Shown here: positions 52,143 to 58,933 of the stretch, one piece after another | Layout: each line of letters begins with the position of its first letter | Position numbering within the stretch: position 1 is the stretch's first letter | Assembly (NCBI RefSeq): GCF_900187455.1 | Contig: NZ_FYDX01000002.1 | Location: forward strand, 1-64,000 | Direction: 5' to 3' | Source of the DNA: Pseudomonas sp. Irchel 3E13 | Lineage (GTDB): Bacteria; Pseudomonadota; Gammaproteobacteria; Pseudomonadales; Pseudomonadaceae | Length of the DNA stretch: 64,000 bases | Translations under genes and position numbers: made by a program | The notes under the pieces: generated by a model | The model's input: only the letters and a program-made list of their open reading frames with translations | The model's database searches: none | Told to the model about the DNA's origin: nothing

Positions 52143-53507
52143 ATGTGGATCCCCAGCCTTCCCGACGACGGACAACCCCGCTACCTGGCCCTGGTCGCCG
52201 CCATCGCCCGCGCCATCGAAAGCGGCGAGCTTCAGGTCGGCGCCCGCCTGCCACCGCAGCGGCGCCTGGCCTGGGCGCTGGGCCTGAACCCGAGCACCAC
52301 GCAACAGGCCTATCGCGAGGCGGCGGCGCGGCATCTGGTGTCCGGCGAGGTCGGTCGCGGCACCTACGTGCTGGCCGGCAGCAAGGAGGCCACCCTGTTC
52401 CGCCTCAAACAGCGGGACAACGGTAGCTCGCAGATCGACCTGTCGACCAACGTGCCCGTGGTCGATACCGACAGCGAAGATTTCGACCGGACCCTGCGCG
52501 AGTTGCTGCAGCAAAACCCAAGCCACACCCTTGAACACTACCTCGGCGCCGAACAGTTGCTGCTCGGTCGCGTGCACGGCGCCAGTTGGTTGTCGCAGCG
52601 CGGACTGCACCTGACCGCCGCGCAGGTGCTGCTGTGCGGTGGCGCTCAGCAGGGGCTGTTCAGTGTGCTGTTGTCGTTCTGCCAGCCCGGCGAAGCGGTG
52701 ATGGTCGAAGCGCTGACCGCTCCCGGGATCAAGGCTGCTTGCCGGCAATTGCGCTTGCCGCTGCACGGCGTCGCCATGGACCACGAAGGCATCCTCCCCG
52801 ACGACCTCGACCGCGTCGCCCGGGCCAGCGGCGCCCGGGTGCTGGTGCTGACGCCGGCGCTGCACAATCCCACCGGCGCCTGCATGGGCGAACAACGTCG
52901 TCGCGATATCGCAGCGGTGGTGGAACGGCTGGACCTGTTGCTGGTGGAGGACGATGTCTACGGCGCCCTGGGCGACCAGCCACCCTTGCTGCCGCTGTTG
53001 GGCCCGCGAGGGTTGCTGGTCAGCAGCCTGTCCAAGACCGTCTGCGCCGGCCTGCGCCTGGGCTGGATCGTCGGCGACGCGGCGTTGCTGGAGCGCATCG
53101 ACCCGTATTCCCAGGCCACCCATTGGCCCATCGCCCCGCTGGTCCTGCAAATCGCCTGCCGCTGGATCGAGGACGGCACCGCCGCGCGCAAGCTCGCCTG
53201 GCAGCGTGAAGAGGTCAATCAACGCTGGCGCCTCGCGGCCAGGCTGCTGGGCCCGGCGCTGGCCGATCAAAGCACGCCGTCGCCGCACATCTGGGTCAGC
53301 GGCCCGCGTCCGGGCGAAGTGCTGGCCGCAGCCTGCCGGGCCAAGGGCGTCGAAGTCGTGCCCGCCCAGGTGTTCGCGGTCAAGCAGGGCCAGGTGCCGG
53401 CTATCCGCGTCAGCCTCACGGCCGCCCGCAGCCGGGCCGAACTGAAGCAGGCGCTGGAACGGGTGGCGCAGGTGCTGGACGAATTCGCCGCGCAGGATCC
53501 GGAGTGA
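52143..53507 (+). CDS. MocR/PdxR-type regulator (GntR winged helix + aminotransferase domain)
   Basis: 454 residues: N-terminal GntR winged helix (SGELQVGARLPPQRRLAWALGLNPSTTQQAYREA, about 20-75), then an aminotransferase fold I domain with PLP Lys in SSLSKTVCAGLRLGWI and LLVEDDVYGALG. Uses PLP as ligand sensor. No Shine-Dalgarno precedes the ATG. Divergent from the PLP-dependent dehydratase gene, so it probably controls that gene. Confidence 0.88.
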   Translation: MWIPSLPDDGQPRYLALVAAIARAIESGELQVGARLPPQRRLAWALGLNPSTTQQAYREAAARHLVSGEVGRGTYVLAGSKEATLFRLKQRDNGSSQIDLSTNVPVVDTDSEDFDRTLRELLQQNPSHTLEHYLGAEQLLLGRVHGASWLSQRGLHLTAAQVLLCGGAQQGLFSVLLSFCQPGEAVMVEALTAPGIKAACRQLRLPLHGVAMDHEGILPDDLDRVARASGARVLVLTPALHNPTGACMGEQRRRDIAAVVERLDLLLVEDDVYGALGDQPPLLPLLGPRGLLVSSLSKTVCAGLRLGWIVGDAALLERIDPYSQATHWPIAPLVLQIACRWIEDGTAARKLAWQREEVNQRWRLAARLLGPALADQSTPSPHIWVSGPRPGEVLAAACRAKGVEVVPAQVFAVKQGQVPAIRVSLTAARSRAELKQALERVAQVLDEFAAQDPE

Positions 53508-53559: not shown

Positions 53560-54186
53560 ATGACTTCACTCGAAACCTTCTACACCCAGGCCGCCGCCCA
53601 CCTCAGCCAGCAAGACCCGGCGTGGGCCGCGCACATTGAGGCCATCGGCCCGTGCCTGCACACCCCGCTGCCGACCCGCGATCCTTACCAGGCGCTGGTC
53701 CGCGCCATCGCCTACCAGCAACTGCATGCGCGCGCCGCCGAGGCGATCCTCGCGCGCTTTCTCGCGCTCTATCCTGATTCCGCGTTTCCCACCCCCGCGC
53801 AACTGCTGGCGACCACGCCGGAGCAACTGCGCGCCTGTGGATTTTCCGGGCGCAAGATCAACACCGTGCAGGCCGTCGCCCAGGCGCGGCTGGACGGTTT
53901 GGTGCCGGATCACGACGAGGCCCGGCAACTGGCACATGAAGTGCTGATCGAGCGCCTGACCCGGCTGCCCGGTGTCGGCCGCTGGACCGTGGAAATGCTG
54001 CTGATCTACACCCTGGAACAGATGGACATCCTGCCGGTCGATGACTTCGGCGTGCGCGAAGGCTACCGTCGTCTGCACGGGCTCGCGGCACAACCGACGC
54101 GCAAGCACCTACAGGAACTGGGCGCGGCCTGGAGCCCGTACCGCACGGTCGCGGCGTGGTATCTGTGGCGGGTGCCAGCGAAGTGA
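53560..54186 (+). CDS. DNA-3-methyladenine glycosylase II (AlkA-like)
   Basis: 208 residues. HhH-GPD fold: helix-hairpin-helix LTRLPGVGRWTVEML followed by catalytic Asp in LPVDDFGVREG. Removes alkylated bases. Shorter than E. coli AlkA (282) because it lacks the N-terminal TBP-like domain. Next to ada in the same direction (81-bp gap), an alkylation-repair unit. Confidence 0.88.
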   Translation: MTSLETFYTQAAAHLSQQDPAWAAHIEAIGPCLHTPLPTRDPYQALVRAIAYQQLHARAAEAILARFLALYPDSAFPTPAQLLATTPEQLRACGFSGRKINTVQAVAQARLDGLVPDHDEARQLAHEVLIERLTRLPGVGRWTVEMLLIYTLEQMDILPVDDFGVREGYRRLHGLAAQPTRKHLQELGAAWSPYRTVAAWYLWRVPAK

Positions 54187-54267
54187 ATTCAAAAGCAAGC
54201 GACGGAGTTTTTCGTGGCCTGGGGATTTCTAGACTGTGCTCCAGCTTCAGCCGTTCGGAGAAAGAAC

Positions 54268-55332
54268 ATGCGCCCTAAAACCCAACCCACGGTCAGCGAA
54301 TCCGATCCACGCTGGCAAGCCCTGCTCGCCCGCGACCCGGCCGCCGACCCGTCGTTCGTCTACGGCGTGCGCACCACCGGCGTCTATTGCCGCGCGTCCA
54401 GCCCGGCGCGCCGGCCGCGCATCGAAAACGTCGAGTTCTTCGCCACTGCGGCCGAAGCCGAAGCCGCCGGCTACCGACCAAGCCGACGCCGCGGCACCGA
54501 CCAGAACGATCTGGCGCGGCAACACGCAGTCCAGGTCGCCCGGGCCTGCAAGCTGATCGAAGAAGCCGAGACCGAACCGAGCCTGGAGCAGTTGGCCGAG
54601 CAGGTGAACATGAGCCCGTACCATTTCCACCGGGTGTTCAAGCGCGCCACCGGCCTGACGCCCAAGGCCTACGCCACGGCGCACCGCGCGCAAAAGCTGC
54701 GCCAGCACCTGCAGCGTGCCGACTCCATCACCGAGGCGGTCTACGAAGCGGGTTTCAATTCCAACAGCCGCTTCTACGAATCCAGCAATGCCCGCCTCGG
54801 CATGACACCGGCGACCTACCGCGATGGCGGCGCCAAGACCGATATCCACTTCGCCATCGCCCAGTGCTCGCTGGGCGCAATACTCGTCGCACAGAGCACC
54901 AAGGGCATCTGCGCGATCCTGCTGGGCGACGACCCGCAGGCGCTGCTGCAGGACCTGCAGGACAAATTCCCCAAGGCCCATTTCATCGGCGCCGATGCCG
55001 CGTTCGAACGTTTGGTGGCGCGGGTGGTGGGTTTCGTCGAAGCGCCGGCGATCGGTCTCGACCTGCCGCTGGACCTGCGCGGCACAGCGTTCCAGGAGCG
55101 GGTCTGGCAGGCGTTGCGGGATATTCCGGTGGGCAGCACTGCCAGCTATGCCGAGATCGCCGAACGCATCGGCTCGCCCAAGGCGGTTCGCGCCGTGGCC
55201 AAGGCCTGCGCGGCCAACAGCATCGCGGTGGCGGTGCCCTGCCATCGAGTAGTGCGCAGCGACGGCAACCTGTCGGGTTATCGCTGGGGCGTGGCGCGCA
55301 AACAGCAGTTGCTGGAGCGGGAAAGAACCTGA
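54268..55332 (+). CDS. ada: Ada: AraC-type regulator/O6-alkylguanine methyltransferase with degenerate zinc site
   Basis: 354 residues from ATG 54268 (GGAG eight bases upstream). N-terminal Ada domain, AraC HTH (about 105-190), C-terminal methyltransferase with active Cys in VAVPCHRVV (about 325). In E. coli Ada the Zn-thiolate centre is Cys38, 42, 69, 72. Here only the first is kept (Cys41, in TTGVYC); the others are Ser45, Ser72 and Arg75. The usual phosphotriester switch should therefore not work as in E. coli. Follows the alkA-like gene. Confidence 0.88.
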   Translation: MRPKTQPTVSESDPRWQALLARDPAADPSFVYGVRTTGVYCRASSPARRPRIENVEFFATAAEAEAAGYRPSRRRGTDQNDLARQHAVQVARACKLIEEAETEPSLEQLAEQVNMSPYHFHRVFKRATGLTPKAYATAHRAQKLRQHLQRADSITEAVYEAGFNSNSRFYESSNARLGMTPATYRDGGAKTDIHFAIAQCSLGAILVAQSTKGICAILLGDDPQALLQDLQDKFPKAHFIGADAAFERLVARVVGFVEAPAIGLDLPLDLRGTAFQERVWQALRDIPVGSTASYAEIAERIGSPKAVRAVAKACAANSIAVAVPCHRVVRSDGNLSGYRWGVARKQQLLERERT

Positions 55333-58300: not shown

Positions 58301-58726
58301 TCACTGGGTCTCGGAATAGCACATGGCGCGTAGATCCGAGTTGCTGATGGTCCCGCAACTCCCGCTCCCTGTCTTGGCATAGCAGTACGTACGCTGATCG
58401 CTGTCGCTGATCGTGCCGCAACTGCCGTTACCGGTCTCGGCATAGCATTGCGTGCGCAAATCGGAGTTGCTGATGGTGCCGCAACTGCCGCTCCCCGTCT
58501 TGGCATAGCAGTACGTACGCTGATCGCTGTCGCTGATGGTGCCGCAACTGCCGTTACCGGTCTCTGCATAGCATTGCGTGCGCAGATCGGAGTTGCTGAT
58601 GGTTCCGCAACTGCCACTCCCCGTCTTGGCATAGCAGTACGTCCGTTGATCGGAGTCGCTGATCGTTCCACAACTGGCATTGGCATACCCGCTGAACATC
58701 AACAGCAAAGCGATGAGTACCCGCAT
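58301..58726 (-). CDS. Secreted protein of six Cys-containing 21-residue repeats
   Basis: 141 residues. Signal peptide of about 17 residues ending NA, then six 21-residue units alternating two kinds: SCGTISDSDQRTYCYAKTG.. and SCGTISNSDLRTQCYAETG.., each with two Cys. The pair repeats at 126 bp and DNA copies are nearly identical. Disulfide-rich; likely to bind a surface, metal or cell wall, but no function known. GGAAG precedes the ATG. Confidence 0.8.
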   Translation of the reverse strand: MRVLIALLLMFSGYANASCGTISDSDQRTYCYAKTGSGSCGTISNSDLRTQCYAETGNGSCGTISDSDQRTYCYAKTGSGSCGTISNSDLRTQCYAETGNGSCGTISDSDQRTYCYAKTGSGSCGTISNSDLRAMCYSETQ

Positions 58727-58933
58727 TTCTTTTTCTTCCATGGCGATACCAGGGACCAGCCTGGCACTAAATAAGGCGACTTCAATTGTCGACGCTGGTT
58801 TTGCGCAATCAAATTGACATCATTTCTGGAAAAAGTTCAGAGAGGGCGTTGAGAACCAAAGCGGTCGCTTTATGTTTCACAGCATTGCCAGCACAATATC
58901 CGACCTTTCAAGCGTCACCCGTAGGAAACCTGC

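Follow-up and report, generated by a model that had tools for sequence, protein, structure and literature searches.

A large group of Pseudomonas Ada proteins lacks three of the four zinc-ligand cysteines and may have kept a working A-domain

Introduction

Ada is the textbook case of a zinc-bound cysteine that performs an irreversible methyl transfer. What becomes of such a protein when most of its zinc site is gone? The question is raised by an ada gene in the 64,000-nucleotide stretch of Pseudomonas sp. Irchel 3E13 analysed here (the window), whose product keeps the methyl-acceptor cysteine and has lost the other three ligands. An earlier note on this DNA had described Cys41 with Ser45, Ser72 and Arg75 as partners, and had suggested that the protein might sense damage in another way, or have become constitutive or a pure repair enzyme, unless the substitutions were sequencing errors. 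We lean towards the first of these: the window protein is probably an Ada orthologue from a group of Pseudomonas in which the zinc tetrathiolate was lost and the domain stayed in service.

Results

The Ada protein of the window

The gene and the relevant parts of its product are the following:

54268-55332, forward strand: ada coding sequence, 354 residues, C1-type (Cys41, Ser45, Ser72, Arg75), from translation and domain matches
54301-54501, forward strand: A-domain (residues 12-78), a homologue of Ada_Zn_binding (PF02805, 97 bits) with three of the four zinc ligands missing
54388-54390, forward strand: Cys41 codon TGC (methyl-acceptor Cys38 of E. coli)
54400-54402, forward strand: Ser45 codon AGC (Cys42 of E. 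coli)
54481-54483, forward strand: Ser72 codon AGC (Cys69 of E. coli)
54490-54492, forward strand: Arg75 codon CGC (Cys72 of E. coli), a position that varies across the C1 group
54592-54825, forward strand: AraC-type DNA-binding domain (PF12833, residues 109-186)
55087-55326, forward strand: O6-methylguanine methyltransferase DNA-binding/active-site domain (PF01035)
55240-55242, forward strand: codon of the PCHR cysteine, Cys325, within the PF01035 domain

The protein has the architecture of an Ada, with A-domain, AraC domain and O6-alkylguanine methyltransferase in the same order as in E. coli Ada (PF02805, AraC, PF01035). It scores 458 bits against the NCBIfam model NF011964 “Ada” (cut-off 345) and is 52% identical to E. 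coli Ada (b2213, NC_000913.3) over residues 8-349. In this alignment C38, C42, C69 and C72 of E. coli correspond to C41, S45, S72 and R75, so the residues had been named correctly. The equivalents of Cys38 (Cys41) and Cys321 (Cys325) are both present, and the AraC domain and the latter cysteine are intact, as the earlier note had also said. The window protein further has R48 and R74, the equivalents of R45 and R71, which the available text of PMC3788762 gives as the A-box contacts of E. coli Ada.

Of four zinc-ligand cysteines expected in an A-domain of the E. coli type, the window protein keeps one, and we therefore file it as a zinc-site-less Ada variant and not as a canonical zinc Ada. With three ligands gone, the classical four-cysteine switch should indeed be unable to run as described. 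A second A-domain protein acting as a backup was considered and rejected, since the profile search of the window genome gave one PF02805 match in total, the window Ada itself.

A group of Pseudomonas Adas without the zinc site

Comparison with related Pseudomonas Adas, which had been proposed as a check, showed that the Ser45 state is common to 191 loci (the window counted once, some species entered both as a named and as an unnamed record), i.e., 170 distinct full proteins and 151 distinct domains. This rules out sequencing errors. What had seemed a single odd protein turns out to be standard for a large part of the genus, and the loss of three ligands is the normal state of a large group, here called C1, not a one-off mutation. 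Residue 41 is a cysteine in 189 of the 191 loci (149 of the 151 distinct domains) and a glycine in two; position 72 holds Ser or Asn, whereas position 75 is unconstrained. The nearest named relative is Pseudomonas japonica, whose Ada is 87% identical to that of the window; the Ada of another locus (L171, genome G130) is 99% identical.

The remaining A-domains, classed like the others with an HMM built from Pseudomonas and E. coli Adas, comprise 139 with four cysteines and one (L317) in which the fourth cysteine is shifted. Part of the classified loci came from two draws, one covering 274 genomes of the class and the other 249 of the phylum. Only some of the matches in these draws were fetched, so a second zinc-less lineage may exist elsewhere.

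In a first tree of 85 rows, the Ser45 group formed one side of a branch (SH-aLRT 94), beside the four-cysteine Pseudomonas orthologues. The Ada of L317 (genome G041) has cysteines at positions 41, 45 and 72 (“CCCA”) and its fourth cysteine two residues further on. Once added to the tree, it fell inside the Ser45 group without strong support, and a single clade of all Ser45 rows that excludes it was not rejected by the AU test (p 0.167). Because L317 sits weakly inside C1, the cysteines may not have gone in a single clean loss. This protein could be an intermediate, a reversion or a recombinant. Other apparent three-cysteine intermediates (L009, L010, L011, L028, L115 and the L020 type, and likewise L222, L225, L230, L232 and L233) turned out to be artefacts of alignment gaps and have all four cysteines.

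We also looked at 75 genomes whose best match lay outside an earlier listing (G182 added), which are not an unbiased census. Among them, 62 have a single PF02805 match, which is Ser45-type in 41 (40 with Cys41, one with Gly41) and four-cysteine in 21; the other 13 have two matches, and a four-cysteine second domain occurs in five of these among the loci fetched. Three Ser45-type Adas come from records labelled Paucimonas (L033), Burkholderia multivorans (L060) and Ralstonia pickettii (L099), which may be mislabelled genomes or cases of gene transfer.

Fold and metal binding

Zinc is reported to be essential for the folding of this domain in E. coli (PMC4999995, available text), which counts against a domain that works without it. 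From its model, the C1 A-domain is expected to have the known fold. AlphaFold2, run with 36 C1 sequences, gave pLDDT block means of 85-91 over residues 11-70, but the full-length model (overall mean 61.5) is poor beyond its N-terminal part. In structure comparison the model matches 1u8b (Z 12.7, 5.3 Å over 130 residues) and 1adn (Z 7.1, 2.8 Å over 66 residues; a Z under 8 is weak by itself). It is silent on metal; AlphaFold2 models metal sites without metal regardless.

The domain might still bind zinc or another metal through Cys41 and non-cysteine ligands, e.g., Asp13, Asp78 and His86. All 136 distinct C1 proteins have Asp13, Asp78 and His86 have frequencies of 0.96 and 0.90, and Asp27 is frequent too. 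However, the 13 four-cysteine outgroup rows also have Asp13 (7 rows), Asp27 (13), Asp78 (7) and His86 (5), hence these residues are not new ligands. Moreover, no new cysteine or histidine that could make up a replacement site has become fixed in the A-domain of the 136 C1 proteins. We consider a metal site of this kind improbable.

Selection on the A-domain and Cys41

To judge by its coding sequences, the C1 A-domain is maintained and not decaying. The A-domain has a median dN/dS (NG86, 250 sampled pairs) of 0.146, compared with 0.211 in the AraC domain and 0.076 in the active-site domain; in the four-cysteine Pseudomonas orthologues (135 pairs) the value for the A-domain is 0.230. Invariant in the 136 distinct C1 proteins are D13, R15, W16, R22, T36, T37, G38, Y40, S45, P50, N54, F58, G68 and R70 (1.00), and the A-box arginines come close (R48 0.99, R74 0.97).

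For parsimony counts of codon changes we used a tree with 172 distinct coding sequences, of which 168 are C1 and four are others. Codon 41 has 15 synonymous and two non-synonymous changes, both from Cys to Gly on separate tips. Codon 45 has 28 synonymous changes and otherwise just C>S and S>C. In contrast, codon 75, where another zinc ligand used to be encoded, needs 18 non-synonymous changes, including the loss itself (C>A). It serves as an internal control, since position 75, freed from zinc, drifts while position 41 does not. The low dN/dS (0.15), the conservation of codon 41, and the retention of the A-box arginines and of the Ada box described below all argue against decay.

The two Gly41 proteins, from L095 (P. 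salomonii) and L182, share 85.4% identity, less than the 88.8% and 90.2% that they share with Cys41 neighbours, and their glycines are separate events on the tree. Both genes have upstream Ada boxes and are candidates for a constitutively active adaptive response. According to the available text of PMC10957082, a Cys-to-Gly change in the A-box domain renders E. coli Ada constitutive. Natural Gly41 proteins would by analogy be locked-on forms. This evidence is suggestive only, because two cases are few and glycine is one of several residues within reach of a single base change.

The ada promoter

Upstream of ada, the window has the following elements:

54186-54208, forward strand: Ada box AATTCAAAAGCAAGCGACGGAGT, with A-box, B-box and an X-box-like CGG part, between alkA and ada
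54230-54235, forward strand: putative -10 element TAGACT, 21 bases after the box, a spacing shared with relatives

The A-box and B-box operator (AATTCAAAAGCAA, at 54186) is a regular feature of the group. All 152 C1 ada loci of the first set carry an upstream box of the form AATT-N5-GCAAG-N3-CGGAGT, and 87 of 119 distinct promoters have TAANCT 21 bases further on. A strict pattern, GCAAG-N(3-6)-C(A/G/T)G(A/G)(G/T), was found within 150 bases upstream in 143 of these loci, with a spacer of three in 142. Over the same distance, a weight matrix built from the C1 sites detected the box in 148 of the 152 loci and in none of 3040 shuffled regions. We rejected absence of the box as the reason for the nine and four misses; in the four loci missed by the matrix, L171 included, it lies 196-590 bases upstream. 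Among 117 distinct C1 sites, positions -7 and -6 are T (0.99 each) and position -8 is A (0.73) or G (0.26).

The matrix also matched all 39 C1 loci fetched later, of which seven are protein-identical to earlier loci; 12 of the other 32 have sites new to the matrix. In each of 80 loci of about 6-11 kb (L032-L111) there is one match upstream of ada. A second box occurs in 40 of them, always upstream on the same strand, although most of these sequences had also been used to build the matrix. In the three cases examined (L038, L066 and L060), a repair gene comes directly after the second box.

In the form and spacing of its A-box, the C1 box agrees with that of E. coli, whose ada has AATT-N5-GCAA upstream, and with those of the four-cysteine outgroups. 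It differs from that of E. coli in the CGG that follows the B-box. Within 150 bases upstream of ada, only 84 of the 152 C1 loci match the E. coli-like pattern A(A/T)T-N6-GCAA (1.6 expected from shuffles), because the second A-box position is a G in roughly one in four distinct sites. In the same region it was found in none of 17 four-cysteine Pseudomonas orthologues and in one of 27 others (E. coli). In nine of these 17 four-cysteine loci AATT-N6-GCAA lies 700-870 bases ahead of ada, at the expected place of the alkA promoter, and ten have GCAAG-N3-CGG(A/G)GT with a different A-part just upstream of ada. The far-upstream box, e.g., in L007, L115 and L123, is one base longer than the boxes of E. 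coli, the outgroups and C1. Among 13 four-cysteine Adas of other families in the class draw (L205-L217), seven scored at least 20 with the matrix and six scored 5 to 18. CGG after GCAA is present in several of these EcAda-like promoters of other gammaproteobacteria and is not confined to Cada2-type regulators.

These data bear on the suggestion of a constitutive protein or a pure repair enzyme with the A-domain as a relic. In its favour, the classical switch would not be expected to survive without three of its ligands. A dead A-domain is hard to reconcile with boxes that, upstream of zinc-site-less proteins, match those of E. coli and the outgroups in A-box form and spacing. The box, the -10-like element, the A-box arginines, purifying selection, an invariant Ser45 and a Cys41 found in all but two loci point instead to a working activator that is still regulated. 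We find this suggestion very hard to believe.

In the window genome, GCAAG-N3-CGGAGT occurs once and the reversed control pattern twice, so this count alone is uninformative; a longer pattern that includes the TT occurs once and its control not at all. A wider regulon in this genome was rejected, as there is no box near its other PF01035 matches or its AlkB-like match, and upstream of alkA only a degenerate sequence.

Genomic setting

Two further features lie upstream of the Ada box:

53482-53506, forward strand: degenerate box-like sequence AATT-N6-GCAGG-N3-CGGAGTG, with a score of 5.6 versus 30.6 for the ada box
53560-54186, forward strand: alkA-like DNA glycosylase gene (HhH-GPD, PF00730) upstream of ada, from domain match and synteny

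The degenerate sequence ends 53 bases before the alkA start, within the end of an upstream GntR/MocR-type gene. It is perhaps the remnant of an alkA box and may also be due to chance. Two more PF01035 matches, perhaps Ogt-like and Atl-like, and one AlkB-like match occur in the window genome; the matrix found no box near any of these three.

In E. coli alkB lies downstream of ada, whereas in C1 alkA or alkB is often upstream. Within 2 kb upstream of ada in 138 C1 loci (some with flanks of only about 1.5 kb), we found alkA in 26, alkB in 83, both in one and neither in 28. L066 has, in this order, a box, Oxygenase-NA (PF09859), alkB (PF13532), a second box and ada, and in L038 Oxygenase-NA adjoins ada. 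This setting matters for the idea that Cys41 senses electrophiles or oxidants directly through its thiol and does not respond to DNA methylphosphotriesters. A lone conserved cysteine in a DNA-binding domain is compatible with such a role. Yet, the neighbours of C1 ada are alkylation-repair genes, and its promoter has the same box as those of four-cysteine Adas. A thiol sensor is thus quite unlikely.

A candidate switch without zinc

What can be read from the sequences is that the ligands are lost with no fixed cysteine or histidine in their place, that Cys41 and Ser45 are under strong selection, and that the A-box arginines and a promoter with A-box, B-box and their spacing are kept. The explanation we find somewhat the most convincing is a metal-free switch, in which Ada would still be an autoregulator and Cys41 would still accept the methyl group without a zinc tetrathiolate. 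The A-domain would fold and bind the A-box without zinc. Cys41, perhaps with hydrogen bonds from Ser45 and Ser72 and polarisation by nearby arginines, would as a metal-free thiolate take the methyl from a methylphosphotriester. Loss of this single thiolate charge would strengthen binding at the box and turn ada on. Gly41 proteins would then be natural locked-on forms. The conservation of Cys41 could also reflect another role, which speaks against this switch. We hold it as a tentative proposal, with somewhat less confidence, that the whole lineage uses a zinc-independent methylphosphotriester switch run by a lone thiolate, with P. salomonii and one other genome carrying locked-on Gly41 forms.

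The main rival of the metal-free Cys41 switch is a shift of the switch to Cys325, where methylation of the PCHR cysteine would activate the protein, the A-domain would only bind DNA, and Cys41 would have a lesser, structural role. Caulobacter Cada2 is reported to work in this way (PMC10957082, available text). It resembles the window protein in its AraC and methyltransferase parts and perhaps in the GCAA and CGG elements of its operator, but has no A-domain and is switched by the PCHR cysteine, which the window protein has as Cys325. The Cys325 codon has 30 synonymous and no non-synonymous changes on the tree of 172 coding sequences. At position 168, all 23 C1 and all 16 four-cysteine Pseudomonas rows sampled have Arg, as do 12 of 13 outgroup rows, whereas E. 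coli has Ser. C1 promoters also have the X-box-like CGG after GCAA. In the window (GCAAGCGACGGAGT) four bases separate the two, compared with three in the published description of Cada2. However, several four-cysteine outgroups carry the same element, so it does not mark a changed mechanism. In addition, the second HTH motif of Cada2, RLHD, is missing from the window protein, which has SRFYES in its second HTH. A shift to Cys325 explains induction, but neither the constancy of Cys41 against the drift at position 75 nor the fact that the two escapes are both to glycine. We consider such a shift unlikely, though still worth weighing.

Does work on P. putida KT2440 settle the matter? Its Ada (PP_0706) is an orthologue with the same alkA-ada gene order, and the available text of PMC3788762 describes this operon as MMS-inducible and Ada-dependent, with an alkA box ATT-N6-GCAA and 54.6% identity between its Ada and that of E. 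coli. By our alignments the four-cysteine Pseudomonas orthologues are 52.0-56.2% identical to E. coli Ada and C1 reaches at most 53.9%, although the published value was obtained by a different method and the comparison is indicative only. Because 54.6% exceeds the C1 maximum and the alkA box fits the AATT-N6-GCAA sites of four-cysteine loci, KT2440 Ada is probably of the four-cysteine type, judged from these published data and not from its sequence. Its MMS induction is hence no proof of C1 function, and knowledge from KT2440 may not extend to much of the genus.

In open-licence PubMed Central papers, we found no biochemical or expression reports on C1 Adas and no reports of this cysteine loss, which is not mentioned in the available portions of PMC4437013 or PMC3788762. 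If the metal-free Cys41 switch is right, the zinc tetrathiolate would be dispensable for both chemistry and signalling. C1 has in nature retained the acceptor cysteine, the DNA contacts and the operator, but not the zinc site. It thereby separates the roles of zinc in folding, thiolate activation and the electrostatic switch, which makes them testable by comparing orthologues.

Another observation from the window

Downstream of ada, at 58301-58741 on the reverse strand, a 146-residue open reading frame has a signal-like N-terminus and cysteine-containing units made from 63-base repeats, which TRF delimits at 58333-58676 (5.5 copies).
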